A stretch of 64,000 nt of DNA from Viridothelium virens (Eukaryota > Ascomycota > Dothideomycetes > Trypetheliales > Trypetheliaceae): the NCBI GenBank assembly GCA_010094025.1, contig ML991785.1, positions 400,462-464,461 on the forward strand, written 5' to 3'. The translations under genes and the position numbers were made by a program. The notes beneath the pieces are model-generated. The model searched no databases and was not told where the DNA came from. It was given only the letters and a program-made list of their open reading frames with translations. Positions 4,462 through 63,721 of this stretch are shown here, piece after piece. Within the stretch, counting starts at the first letter, position 1; each line of letters opens with the position of its first letter.

Positions 4462-7039
4462 ATGTTGTCAAGAATGGCTGCGCGGTCTTATGCAACCGTC
4501 TACAGAATCCTTGGAGTGCCTCTGGAGTACGACCGAAAGCGATTAAGAACCGCTTTGATATCCATTTTTGCACTTTCAGGAACAAAGCACATCAGAATTC
4601 ATTCTTTAGCCCCTAATTACACCTTATCACGCCCTTCACAAGTTGCAACAGTTACCTTTGAGAATGACCCTAGTGTATTATTATCTGGGAAGAGGGAGAG
4701 TCCATTCGCGTTACCCAGTGAAGATAGCAGCGGTGACAGCGACGATGAAGATGCGCTTGACCGAGCGAAGATTACGCTTGATACGCGGTTCGAAGGCCTG
4801 ACACCCCTCAGATCTTTCAGTGATGAGGACGATCACCAGGTCGAGTAAGTGGTTTTTTATTTTGAAGGCATGGTATCGAGATCTCTTCATCGGACACTCG
4901 AAAGCCATTCCACGCTCGGAAGGAAAGCATTGGGAAATGCCTCTGAAGACGGTCAATCCTCAAGGAATCCCAAGTTCTGTACTAAAAACTTTGTGATAGC
5001 TGTATTGCAATCTGTGGCCTTGGGGGTCATGCATTTGGCTCTTTCAAAGAGAAGGGCGGAGACTATATGTGGCTCCGTGACTCTTTGCCAAGAGACCTTC
5101 CGAATACTCAAATATACCTGTATGGATACGATTCTCACCTGGCCCTCAGTGAGTCCTTTCAGGATATACCTACATTAGCATCGGCACTACAACAGACCAT
5201 AAGACGACTTACGATCCATTGCCGACCGAAAGTATGACAAAAATGACTTTCATGTGGGCTCCAGGGACTGACCTTGCTAGAATCGAGTCATTCCAAGACC
5301 ATTAGTGTTCATTGCTCACAGCCTCGGGGGTATCCTTCTGAAACAGGTATATTCTCCCCAGATGATTCAACTCAGATGTCGCCTTGGTCTGTACATCTGA
5401 ACCGACTGACTGTATGACCTTTAGGCCATTGTACAAATGGCACAGGATCCAAATGATCGGATGATTCCCTACTTTATTATTGGGGCGTTGTTTTTTGGTG
5501 TACCTAATCAAGGCATGGAAATTAATTCCTTGCGGACAATGGTTCAAGGTCAACCTAACGAGCCGCTACTTTTGCAACTAGGACAAGGCTCGGACTTTCT
5601 CCAGAAGCTCACACAAGATTTCGAACAGGCTTTTCCGTTCCCAGATTCCAGTATTATCTGCTTTTGCGAGACTCGGCTGTCTCCTACAGCGACTCGAAAC
5701 CCGCAGGTAAGCTCGGTCCAAGGAAACAAGAGCTCGCTAATGTGGTATTCAGACAGGAAACTGGAAAATGGGGGGACCTCCGATCAAACTGGTCGATCCC
5801 TCTTCCGCAATGAGTGGTCGCGTCCTCGATCAACAGCACCAATTGAACCCCATTGATCGAAATCACTCCGAATTGGTCAAATTTGCTCTTCATGATGAGA
5901 TGTATGATACAGTGTCTCACAGACTGCAGTATCTCTGTCAGATTGCTTCATCGCGAATATACCAGCGTTTCCCGAACCTTGAATTCGCCTTGCATGACGC
6001 CGTGGAGAACGGCAACGGCACTCTTACTGAATCTCTCCTCCGTTGTGGCGCAGATCCTCAGAAAGAGGTGCGATCAACGCAAAATGTATTAACACCTATC
6101 CATCTTGCCGCAGCTGCAGGGCATTCTAAAGTCATCCAAACGCTGATCAAGTACGGAGCGAAACATACCCCGCACGATCTTGCGCAGAGTTCAACAACTT
6201 CACCACTACATTTTGCAGCGTGGCAAGGCAGAGCCAAATCGGCTCTTTTGCTTCTTGCAATGGGTGCAAACGTGATGATTTGCGGAGCGCTTAAGAATAC
6301 ACCGCTGCACTTTGCAGCAATGAAGGGACATCCTGACTTGGTCGATATCCTGGTAGGACATGGCGCACACATAAACGCTCAAAATTACCAAGGTGCAACG
6401 CCACTACATCACGCTCTCGAAGCAGCTAGAGGCAATAACACCGATCGAAGGGCCGAGACTATACGCAGACTGGTAGCACTTGGTGCTAGAATCAACATTC
6501 TGGCTCGTGACGGCAAGACTGCTCTAGGAAACGCTATATATCATGGATTAGCTAAAGCGCTAGACAACTGGCTAAGCTGAGGGGCTCTCAATGTGAATTT
6601 TCGCAGTGAACCTTAAGACTGGACTGCTCTGCATCTAGCAGCATTGACCGGGAACTCTCAGCCGACGAAACTCCTTCTCAATGCTGGTGCGGATGTCGAT
6701 GCAGTCGATCACTATCACGAGACAGCTTTATGTTGTACATGTTCTGGAGGTCACGTGTCTGTCGTAATGGATCTCCTCAGTGTTAGTGCCAGAACCGACA
6801 TCCAAAGCTCTAGCTCTCTCACGCTAAAAGGAGTAGCATCATATCACGGGCATTTAGAAGTCGTCAGGCCTCTTGAAGAAAAAGAAGCTGCAGTAGCAAA
6901 GACAGCACGGAAGAAGGCGAAGGCAGCAAAGGGTAGCAAAGGGCAATCCAGCAGAAGACCAAGACACTCCAACTCTGAACGAAGTTCAAACCATGTGATC
7001 ATCGTCAAGAGGAAGCCGGGAATCAGTTATCTGGCGTGA
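4462..7039 (+). pseudogene. SERAC1/DUF676-like alpha/beta-hydrolase + ankyrin protein, two in-frame stops
   Basis: This is a paralogue of the intact gene at 10137-12659, with the same exon plan. Exons: 4462-4844, 5000-5231, 5281-5346, 5425-5706 and 5753 onward; the extra intron 5232-5280 is absent from the paralogue. The N-terminal module (ATVYRILGVPLEYDRKRL) is followed by the hydrolase: glycine loop CGLGGHAFGSFKEKGGDYM, nucleophile motif FIAHSLGGILL (Ser about 219), GALFFGVPNQGM, and the presumed catalytic His in IDRNHSELVKF (about 359). Ankyrin repeats follow. Exon 5 then meets TGA at 6578-6580 and TAA at 6614-6616, yet the same frame goes on with ankyrin sequence (DWTALHLAALTGNSQPTKLL) to 7037-7039. 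CGA-to-TGA and CAA-to-TAA would create both stops by single C-to-T changes, and CAA-to-TAA is the classic RIP change. A truncated protein of about 596 residues could still be made. Confidence 0.75.
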
Positions 7040-10136: not shown

Positions 10137-12659
10137 ATGCGATGGGAGATGGGAACCAAACAGTACTCAACAGTGTATAGGGTGCAAGGCATACCTATGG
10201 AATATCGGAAGAAACAGTTGAAGGAAGCGTTGACCTCAATTTTTCATCTCCTAGAGACAGAAAATTTTGTTCGCATTTACTCTTTAGCGCCAAATTATAC
10301 GTGGTCTCGCTCTTTGAAGGTAGCTACGATAACCTTCGATAAGGAAATAGAAGTCTTATCGGAAGGCAAAAAAGAAGCATGCTTTGTCGTCCCTACCGGA
10401 GATACTGACGACGATGACGACGATGGTGCGTTTTCTCAACGCGTCACATTCAAGCTCGATGTGCACTTCGAAGGCCTGACACCTTTGCGTGCATTCAGGA
10501 ACGAAAGAGATCATCTCATTGAGTAAGTGCCCTATGAGCAATCACAATCCTTGGCGGTATGCCGCAAGCTTTCGACTGAGCCATCCTGCATAGCGTCGTC
10601 GCCGTAACTGGTCTTGGAGGCCATGCCTATGGGTCATTCAAGGAAAGAGGCGGAGATCACATGTGGCTTCGCGACTCTCTCCCACAGGATCTAGAAGCGG
10701 CGCAAATATATCTGTATGGATATGACTCGCACTTGTCAAACAGCCAGTCTTTCCAAGGGATTGTGGCATTGGCGACTACTTTGAGACAGCGCCTACAAAG
10801 ACTCAGAAGAGTATCCGAACATGACGATAGGCCGGTCCCAAGGCCCTTGATTTTTATTGCTCACAGCCTTGGTGGCATCCTTGTCAAAGAGGTGTGTACG
10901 ACCTCTTCATAAAGAGAAGGACCAGCTCTTTCAGCGTTGTGTCTGATCAGACCTTGAACTTCCACAGGCTTTAGTGCAGATGCAAGATGACCCTCACGAT
11001 CAGAGAATGCTCAAGACGGTGTTTGGGGCTCTTTTCTTCGGTGTTCCCAATCATGGGATGGATATCACATCTCTACGCACAATGGTCCGAGGACAGCCAA
11101 ATGAGAATTTAGTCACACAACTAGGTCCTGATTCAGACATCCTGGATAGGCTGGCTTCCGACTTTGATAGGGTTTTCAACTTTTCGGACTCCCGCATAGT
11201 ATGCTTTTGCGAGACAGCTTTGTCCCCTACAGCAGTAGAAGACCCTGCAGTAAGTTGTGGCAATACATCAATCTGATTTTCCATCCATAGCAAACCAGAT
11301 GAACTCACGATCTTTTAGACGGGAGTATGGAAGCTTACCGGGCCTCCTGTGAAACTCGTTGGCAATTTCTCAGCAAAAAGTGGTCGCCCACGTGATCGCG
11401 AGTCCTACCAACTCAACCCTATCAATCGCAACCATTCTGATCTTGTAAAATTCCCTTTGTACGATGATGTGTATGAGACCGTTCGGTCAACACTGCGGGG
11501 ATTTGCGTCGATTGCGCCGAGAGTCATCTACAGTCGCTTCCCTTTGGATTCGAGCTTAGGATTGCATGAAGCCGCCAAAAAGGGAAACGTCGATCGAGCT
11601 CATCTACTTCTGTCATGCGGAGTTGATCCAGATGAAAGTGATGCTGATACAATGACACCCATGCATCTCGCTGCTCAACGTGGACACGTCGAACTCATTC
11701 GGATACTCGCAAATTTTGGGGCGAGTATAGATCAGGAAGGCGGCCAAAACCGGGAGACTCCGCTTCACTGTGCCGTGGCGGAAGGCTGTACTGAGGCTGT
11801 CCAGACCATCGTGGAGAACGGCGCTGACATTCACGCGCGAGAGGCATATGGTGACACGGCCTTGCATCTTGCAGCAGAACTAGGCCACGCCGACATCATT
11901 CGGATACTGGTGCAATATGGCGCTCGGATTGATGGTAGAAACAGGACAAAAGACGGCAAGACCGTTCTCCAGGCTGCCGTGGAGGCTGAGATTAAAATGA
12001 GCTACCAGGGAAAAAGAAACGAAGCCCTTGATACGCTCGTGGCTCTTGGTGCCGACGTCAATGTCGGAGGTGGTTTGGAGACACCACTACATTGCGCCGT
12101 ACGGGCTGGCAGTGTACGGGCTGCTCGCATTCTTCTAAACGGCGGTGCAAACGTCAATGTGTCGGAACCAAGGAACTTCGAATCACCTCTGCATGCGGGG
12201 GTAATTGCCGGAAATGCCGAGTTGACGTGTCTGCTATTAGAGAAAGGCGCGTATGTCAACGCAAGAGACAGTAGGGGAAGAACGCCTCTATTCCTCGCTG
12301 CAGAGAAGTGTCACTCGACTGTGATACCGGAGCTTCTTCGCTACGATCCTGATATTTTTGTTCAAGACTTTGAGCATAAGCTTACCGCATTAGAGATTTC
12401 CCGCCGAAAGATGCACTCGGCAACAATGCAGGTCCTAGAAGGGCATACATCTCTATCAACAACTTCTATTGAGGAAGGAAAAATACAAAATAGTAAGTAC
12501 GGTCTCAGACAATTACTTGCATTTCTTGTTGAAGCCTCTGTACATATATGCTCACCACTTACAGATATTCCAAGCGCTCCAACCGCGGCCGACGTTCTTC
12601 TCGATTTCCCCAATTACGAAATCGATCCTTCGCCATTTGCCGATAATGGACAGGGCTAA
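10137..12659 (+). CDS. SERAC1/DUF676-like alpha/beta-hydrolase + ankyrin protein, intact copy
   Basis: Exons: 10137-10522, 10594-10891, 10968-11249, 11319-12492 and 12565-12659, giving 744 residues. The start MRWEMGTKQYSTVYRVQG matches the paralogue's MLSRMAARSYATVYRILG; an internal ATG at 10149 is also possible. Residues 1-125 are the N-terminal module seen in fungal esterase-ankyrin proteins. About 129-361 is the hydrolase: VVAVTGLGGHAYGSF, DHMWLRDSLP, Ser220 in IAHSLGGILVK, GALFFGVPNHGM and His361 in INRNHSDLVKF. From about 385, roughly eight ankyrin repeats (for example TPMHLAAQRGHVELIRIL) reach residue 700. The last intron (12493-12564) is 72 nt and stop-free, so retention would add 24 residues. 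By analogy such architectures act as NLR-like sensors with an esterase effector; no experimental role is implied by sequence alone. Confidence 0.85.
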
Positions 12660-15600: not shown

Positions 15601-15812
15601 GGGAGAGGCGGAAGAGAGACGGCTAGGGCCTGGGGAAAGTAAGGAACGTGATAGAAAGGAACGGACAAGCGAATAGGACGTAGGTAAAAGAGTGAATATA
15701 GGGATAAGGATGACAGTAGCGAGCGACTAAAGGGTGAAATTAGCGACTTAACAGCAGAGGACAGCTCGAGTACCTAGGACCAGCTCATTAGCCGTTTCGC
15801 CGCATTGACTAC
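12660..15812. other. gene-poor intergenic region
   Basis: No ORF here has an ATG start and a recognisable domain. Short frames around 13143-13640 and 14040-14440 show no match to any family I know. The region borders a MITE and an LTR candidate and is probably old repeat-derived sequence. Confidence 0.45.
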
Positions 15813-15991
15813 CTTACCGCGGCTGGGGGGTTCCTCAACTGGTAATCAATACAATGTTATTTCAACTTTACTGTTGCGACCTTGTTGGCCCATGTTCTCG
15901 CCGCCTTAAGATAGGTCAACATGGTCATAACAGCTAAAGTGAGGTAACATTATGTTGATTATCAGTTGAGGAACCCCCCAGCCGCGGTAAG
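15813..15991. mobile_element. palindromic MITE, copy 1
   Basis: This is a 179-nt foldback element. The first 29 nt (15813-15841, beginning CTTACCGCGGCTGGGGGG) are the exact reverse complement of the last 29 (15963-15991). Inside these, the arms stay complementary with scattered mismatches up to a central spacer of about 17-20 nt, so the whole element can form one hairpin. It has no ORF. A diverged copy lies at 63112-63291. Flanks do not give a clear target-site duplication; CTTA...TAAG is part of the termini in both copies, which would fit a TA target but does not prove it. Confidence 0.85.
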
Positions 15992-16330
15992 TCAGGTTGC
16001 AGCCTTTTGATATCTGATGTCTACCGGACCAACGGCCACGATATGACACAACCGCCCCTCTTGATTGCAGATATTGCCAGTCGATGTTGTGGATATGAAC
16101 GTTATCCTTAGGTACAGTCTAAGAAGGCGTGGCGTTAAGTGTCCAGAAAGGTGAATACCGCCTACAGGTGACGCCCCTGCCCTCATTCACTGCAATGACT
16201 GATAAAGCCTAAGTCGGTCAGATCAAGCTACGCATGAGTTGTATACTAAAAGATTGGTCTTACAGGCAGTTTCAGGAACGTGTTCCCCAGGCATACACTG
16301 ATACCTAATTGCTGCGATGATGTTAGCAAC

Positions 16331-63111: not shown

Positions 63112-63291
63112 CCTTAAGGCGGCTGTGGGGTTCCTCAAATGGTAATTAATACAATGCTATTTCGACTTTACTGTTATGACCTTGTTGGTCCATGTCAACA
63201 CCGTCTTAACATAGGCCAACATGGTCATAACAGTTAAACTTAGGTAACATGTATTAACAACCAGTTGAGGAACCCCCCAGCCGCCGTAAGG
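63112..63291. mobile_element. palindromic MITE, copy 2
   Basis: This copy has the same architecture and internal order as the one at 15813-15991. The right terminus (63263-63290) matches copy 1 closely; the left terminus carries substitutions (CTTAAGGCGGCTGTGGGG). Differences between copies include several C/T and G/A changes, for example AATCAATAC against AATTAATAC. No ORF. It lies about 300 nt from the tRNA-Asp gene. Confidence 0.85.
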
Positions 63292-63476: not shown

Positions 63477-63575
63477 AACAGGGAAATAGAGAAGGACAAC
63501 GAGAGGGCTGGCAGAGGGGGAAAGGAAAGGAAAAGGAACAAAAGAAAAGGAAGAGGGAAAGAAGGAATGAAAAAT
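63477..63575. repeat. purine-rich tract
   Basis: Nearly 100 nt of mostly A and G on the + strand with only scattered pyrimidines, directly downstream of the tRNA gene. It could form unusual DNA structure or simply be low complexity. Confidence 0.6.
63570..63574 (-). terminator. Pol III terminator (T5) of the tRNA-Asp gene
   Basis: Five T on the reverse strand, 15 nt after the last tRNA base, the expected RNA polymerase III stop signal. Confidence 0.75.
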
Positions 63576-63588
63576 ATTGAATTCCAAT

Positions 63589-63721
63589 CTCCCAGACAGG
63601 GAATCGAACCCTGGTCTCCCGCGCCCGACGAATTGACAGGCGGAAACTGTACGAATTAGATTAGAGATGAATAATTTAGGGTGTTGGAAATGCTAACTCA
63701 TGACCACTAGACCATCTGGGA
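63589..63721 (-). tRNA. tRNA-Asp(GUC) with a 10-nt anticodon-loop intron and a 51-nt GT-AG insertion
   Basis: The acceptor stem TCCCAGA pairs perfectly with TCTGGGA; the discriminator is G. The A-box (TGGTCTAGTGG) and B-box (GGTTCGATTCC) are consensus, and the T-arm stem CAGGG/CCCTG is perfect. The anticodon stem TCCGC/GCGGG encloses CTGTCAC once a 10-nt intron (63624-63633) is removed at the canonical 37/38 site; the anticodon GTC is at 63635-63637. A second insertion, 63647-63697, interrupts the 3' strand of the D-stem after nucleotide 24; it starts GTTAGC, has CTCTAATCTAATTCG and ends TACAG. Removing both leaves exactly 72 nt with every stem paired, the normal length of eukaryotic tRNA-Asp. 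The intact promoters and terminator argue for a transcribed gene, but it could be an interrupted pseudogene. Confidence 0.85.

Follow-up and report, generated by a model that had tools for sequence, protein, structure and literature searches.

Results

A tRNA-Asp gene with two inserts

The window analysed here, i.e., the whole stretch of 64,000 nucleotides, carries on its minus strand a tRNA-Asp(GUC) gene of 133 nt (63721-63589), which was recognised by direct reading, dissected by script and rechecked for its coordinates. Along the minus strand, 24 nt of tRNA are followed by an insert of 51 nt, 13 nt of tRNA that end with A37, an intron of 10 nt and a final 35 nt of tRNA. The first part (63698-63721) covers tRNA positions 1-24 and contains the A box (63704-63714). 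The insert, GTTAGC...CTAATCTAATTCGTACAG (63647-63697), as delimited by our script, separates tRNA positions 24 and 25 and resembles a spliceosomal intron: it starts with GT and ends with AG, and its putative donor GTTAGC (63692-63697) and putative acceptor CAG (63647-63649) enclose two adjacent CTAAT motifs (63655-63664) similar to branch sites, whose branch adenosines would lie 14 and 9 nt from the insert end. Positions 25-37 with the anticodon GTC occupy 63634-63646; the canonical tRNA intron ATTCGTCGGG, found by ARAGORN, lies at 37/38 (63624-63633), and positions 38-73 with the B box (63600-63610) complete the gene at 63589-63623. The three tRNA parts were delimited by both script and ARAGORN. 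A 7-mer on the tRNA strand, AATTCGT, is common to the 3' part of the insert (63651-63657) and the region of the 10-nt intron (63628-63634), which may be a chance match.

The first-pass annotation had described an ordinary 10-nt anticodon-loop intron and a further 51 nt in the D-stem, both of which must be removed to obtain a tRNA-Asp of 72 nt. Script and ARAGORN bear out this dissection. With both inserts removed, ARAGORN reports tRNA-Asp(gtc) with 72 bases, and when the 51 nt alone are taken out, its call is again tRNA-Asp(gtc), interrupted at 37/38 by an intron of 10 nt. The acceptor stem, the anticodon stem, the T arm as well as T54, T55, C56, A58, C61 and G73 are all in place. In the D-stem after removal, G10-U25, U11-A24 and C12-G23 are paired, and U13-U22 is a mismatch. 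Apart from the insert, we found no sign of a tRNA pseudogene at the locus, i.e., no decayed tRNA parts or Pol III signals; after both removals the locus has the complete cloverleaf, the A and B boxes and the T-run terminator of a functional nuclear tRNA gene. C32 is able to pair with a G, the third-last base of the 10-nt intron. Such an anticodon-intron pair is a feature of eukaryotic tRNA introns.

The Pol III signals flank the insert, with the A box at position 8 of the precursor and the B box at position 112, such that the two inserts together lengthen the interval between the boxes by 61 nt. This interval also houses the canonical introns of eukaryotic tRNA genes, whose lengths are given as 6-133 nt (PMC4090602). 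There is no T4 run inside the unit, and a T5 run (63570-63574, minus strand), which starts at the 15th base beyond the tRNA end, fits a Pol III terminator.

Automatic calls at the unaltered locus

Left unaltered, the locus yields no call by ARAGORN without introns, and Rfam returns a partial tRNA match of 17.9 bits, which is below the gathering score of 29; at the gathering score there is no Rfam match anywhere in the 64-kb window. When introns are allowed, ARAGORN calls a tRNA-Thr(cgt) with a 56-nt intron. It makes no further call of this kind in the window and none in three shuffled windows, and with or without introns it detects no other tRNA gene in the 64 kb. We judged the tRNA-Thr(cgt) call to be spurious: all 300 constructs in which the insert was shuffled also yield a tRNA call of one kind or another (74 Asp, 8 Thr), and the Thr identity therefore carries no weight. 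The locus is thus an annotation trap, in which ARAGORN overlooks the gene or, with introns allowed, assigns it to tRNA-Thr; similar genes in public genomes may carry wrong annotations. For tRNAscan-SE 2.0, a search for non-canonical introns is described for candidates of the archaeal model in the relevant part of PMC8450103.

Placement of the insert boundary

A block of 51 nt can be removed at four neighbouring placements, each of which leaves a tRNA-Asp call by ARAGORN. With GTTAGC...ACAG as the block removed, position 25 is U, which pairs with G10 and preserves three of the four D-stem pairs; at each of the other three placements it is G, and two of four pairs remain. U25 is presumably also the base of human and yeast tRNA-Asp. 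As the only one of four to keep G10-U25, the GT-AG placement is the one to which the tRNA itself points. The insert thus has the GT-AG ends of a U2-type spliceosomal intron at a boundary that the D-stem favours independently. The script saw no target-site duplication at this placement of the locus.

Intron layout and chance

The combination of a GT start, a YAG end and a CTRAY motif with its branch A 6-25 nt from the end occurs in 11 of the 127,898 51-mers of the window (8.6e-5), which were taken from both strands and include whatever real introns the window has; GT and AG ends alone occur in 460 of them. The same GT/CTRAY/YAG layout appears in 7 of 100,000 shuffles of the insert. Allowing for the four placements makes a chance layout about four times more frequent, i.e., a few in ten thousand, and we consider it unlikely that the layout of the insert arose by chance. 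Both CTAAT motifs lie at distances (14 and 9 nt) within the 6-36 nt that separate CTRAY from the acceptor in fungal U3 introns, and neither carries the upstream R of RCTRAY. The single CTAAT noted near the 3' end in the first-pass annotation is accordingly refined to two adjacent motifs.

The donor is the weak part of the layout. GTTAGC agrees with GTRWGT at +1, +2, +4 and +5 and deviates at two positions, +3 and +6; among fungal U3 genes, deviating donors deviate almost all at one position, as stated in the section of PMC5832005 on U3 introns. Scored with the frequencies of 2,022 Fusarium introns (PMC5677156), TGA|GTTAGC obtains -1.5 bits; 4.3% of simulated Fusarium donors score as low as this, and 19.9% of random GT sites attain the value. 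For the intronic bases alone the respective values on the same Fusarium scale are 9.2% and 14.1%. The donor contributes nothing to the case against a chance layout. Fusarium introns range from 42 to 529 nt with a median of 57 and have CTRAY at 91% of their branch sites (PMC5677156), and the insert with its 51 nt falls inside this length range. Its GC content is 33%, lower than that of either of the two flanks measured (39%, 42%). The insert is free of T4 runs, which is weak evidence, as 62% of its shuffles are free of them likewise.

Predicted introns elsewhere in the window can serve as thin controls. Joined reading frames suggest two of them, 2970-2899 (GTGAGT, 72 nt) and 49657-49588 (GTCAGT, 70 nt). 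The latter, in a proline dehydrogenase gene, has a non-consensus pyrimidine at +3 like the donor of the insert. Pfam matches were obtained for the downstream frames only (ankyrin for one intron, Pro_dh for 49657), with none for the upstream frames. Two other acceptors of the 49657 intron are tied on donor score, and the 70-nt version was picked for its join, which we take to read like proline dehydrogenase. The two introns come from five pairs of open reading frames, three of which had intron candidates; those of the third pair were not trusted. A scan that bridges open reading frames gave 19 candidates, several of them overlapping, and a codon-based scan gave six with weak scores, a list that was left unused and whose first entry is 49657-49588.

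Folding of the unspliced precursor

In the predicted fold of the precursor, the strand made up of exon bases 21-24 plus the donor can form a helix with the branch region (AUGAGUUAG/CUAAUUCGU), with pair probabilities of 0.71-0.85. The 5' boundary of the insert lies inside a continuous helix of nine pairs in the minimum-energy fold, and the native D-stem pairs have a probability printed as 0.0. Since the 9-pair helix replaces the D-stem in the unspliced state, the precursor would need the insert removed in order to form a normal tRNA. The same donor/branch helix could, if it forms as modelled, hide both sites and hinder the spliceosome.

The insert alone has no predicted fold. A foldback element with a stable hairpin is not supported, and the structure lacks significance as a whole: of 1000 shuffles, 63.5% give a precursor that, taken in full, is equally stable; with flanks of 5 nt this fraction is 2.3%, and with flanks of 8 nt it is 7.4%. 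At the four placements tested, we searched for a bulge-helix-bulge and found none, the central 4-bp helix reaching at most two of four pairs. The insert, at 24/25, thus has neither the 37/38 site nor the bulge-helix-bulge of an intron cut by the Sen endonuclease, and an archaeal-type tRNA intron was rejected on the latter ground. This is in agreement with the first-pass annotation, which had held that the insert does not look like a substrate of the tRNA endonuclease.

Discussion

A candidate spliceosomal intron in a tRNA gene

Judged by its layout, the insert is most likely an intron of the spliceosomal type, and the spliceosome is, as we infer from the ends, the known machine that would fit it. 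That the insert is a U2-type spliceosomal intron which is indeed spliced from a Pol III tRNA-Asp gene is the explanation we tentatively prefer, at a confidence just short of even. A nuclear tRNA-Asp(GUC) gene would have gained a short U2-type intron in its D-stem, e.g., by reverse splicing of a free intron, an origin that we offer because the GT-AG placement lacks a target-site duplication. Pol III would use the intact A and B boxes and transcribe the whole 133-nt unit up to the T5 run. From this transcript the 51-nt GT-AG insert would be excised by the spliceosome and the 10-nt intron at 37/38 by Sen, the tRNA endonuclease, together with a ligase, in an order that may also be the reverse. It is a real, if somewhat less than even, possibility that one nuclear Pol III tRNA transcript needs two unrelated machines in this way, the spliceosome at 24/25 and the Sen endonuclease and ligase at 37/38. 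The first-pass annotation likewise saw a spliceosomal-like insert: a layout that is unlikely to be chance upholds that description in part, the weak donor GTTAGC detracts from it, and splicing itself is a prediction from the sequence.

Tentative as it is, the preferred reading has precedents in other structured RNAs. Fungal U6 and U3 genes carry introns (PMC5832005), and U6 is a Pol III transcript (PMC10484740). The fungal U6 introns resemble our case in lying within a small structured RNA gene of fungi (PMC5832005), whereas the host here is a tRNA gene, which has internal A and B boxes and carries an endonuclease-type intron as well. In the comparison of fungal U3 genes, 138 of 310 have introns, and these share with the insert the GT-AG ends, the CAG acceptor, CTRAY, a branch-acceptor distance of 6-36 nt and an insertion into a stem-loop; they differ in donors closer to GTRWGT, an average length of 92 nt and a host that is no tRNA (PMC5832005, U3 part). 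Ascomycete rDNA also holds introns of the spliceosomal type within a structured RNA gene, for which PMC11889510 proposes reverse splicing as a mechanism of spread. Unlike our insert, they reside in 18S rRNA, and the intron family described in that paper measures 355 bp and has a conserved site and many carriers. In view of the introns known from fungal U6, U3 and ascomycete 18S rRNA genes (PMC5832005 and PMC11889510), the suggestion of a new class of tRNA intron in the first-pass annotation went further than the evidence does.

tRNA introns and spliceosomal introns have been treated as separate worlds, and a review of 2026 classes tRNA splicing as independent of the spliceosome in its pertinent passage (PMC13149111). 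A spliced GT-AG intron in a tRNA, if true, would mean that the spliceosome is able to act on a pre-tRNA; such an intron would bring two splicing systems together in an unusual way and provide a test case for intron gain through reverse splicing into structured RNA. Among the matches listed from the open-licence literature, a scope outside which most subscription papers fall, none described a nuclear tRNA gene with a spliceosomal intron.

Alternative explanations

The strongest competitor, quite conceivable although we would lean against it, is a recently dead copy, which the first-pass annotation had also listed as a precise insertion that killed the gene. In this view, a 51-bp sequence landed in a member of a redundant set of tRNA-Asp genes, its resemblance to an intron is accidental, and no splicing takes place. 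Several tRNA-Asp genes are usual in fungi, the donor is weak and the native D-stem is absent from the predicted unspliced precursor, all of which suits a dead gene. It is also the usual reading of short insertions in the D and T arms of eukaryotic tRNA genes: most of them affect a single member of a large synonymous set, and the genes concerned are presumed to be pseudogenes, nucleomorphs and Cyanidioschyzon being named as bearers of real non-canonical introns (PMC4090602, in the passages on such insertions). However, the 72 bases still form the Asp cloverleaf with U13-U22 as its single mismatch, and both an intact 37/38 intron and the Pol III signals have been retained; a very recent insertion would leave all of these undecayed as well. 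Also at odds with a dead copy is the GT/branch/AG layout at the boundary favoured by the tRNA, a coincidence with a chance of about 1e-4, which rises to a few 1e-4 when all four placements are counted.

An improbable variant is a spliceosomal intron by origin, an introner or a reverse-spliced copy, that is at present removed inefficiently, if at all, from a silent or weakly active gene. It would draw on the same layout and would explain the weak donor. The absence of a target-site duplication at the GT-AG placement fits as well, since ascomycete introners are described as lacking TSDs and TIRs in the respective part of PMC9860276, and fungal introner-like elements in general are short intron-like inserts without target-site duplication (PMC4457414 and PMC9860276, in the parts on such elements). 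Unlike them, the insert has no second copy among the matches listed from the 64-kb window, where the next matches measure 9-13 nt.

We regard it as very improbable that the insert is excised by the tRNA endonuclease as a non-canonical intron of the sort known from archaea, nucleomorphs and Cyanidioschyzon. Introns outside 37/38, including the D arm, do occur there alongside a canonical intron (PMC4090602, on non-canonical introns), but those of Guillardia measure 3-24 nt compared to 51 nt here, and our insert shows GT-AG ends and a branch motif instead of a bulge-helix-bulge. The 5' boundary buried in the continuous helix argues against such a cut, too, and eukaryotic Sen is considered in the same text to measure its distance from the tRNA body. 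Hardly credible at all are a faulty assembly or another gene at this locus, such as the tRNA-Thr(cgt). That call is the sole one with introns in the window and has no counterpart in the three shuffled windows, but shuffled inserts always give a tRNA call of some kind, and the remainder of the locus fits tRNA-Asp throughout its length.

Searches of other collections

Exact pattern scans of viral and prokaryotic contigs gave no match; these collections are uninformative on conservation. A search of the open-licence literature for letters of the tRNA sequence gave no paper. Using blastn against phages, we obtained 19 records with matches of 21-24 nt around the B box, located in tRNA-Thr and tRNA-Glu genes, and against plasmids one record that covers 35 nt of the query; neither was helpful.

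Other features of the window

Six proteins of the window were scanned against Pfam. Four match DUF3632, an aspartyl protease, proline dehydrogenase and a fungal transcription-factor domain, respectively, one has kinase-like matches and one has no match. These proteins point to a filamentous ascomycete. A palindromic, MITE-like element of approximately 180 bp is present in two copies (63112-63291 and 15809-15998) that are 84% identical over 183 nt; its outer arms of 42 nt are 88% complementary, and about 300 bp separate one of the copies from the tRNA gene. Three ankyrin-repeat proteins were recognised by Pfam at 1686-2924, 5768-6580 and 11349-12659.
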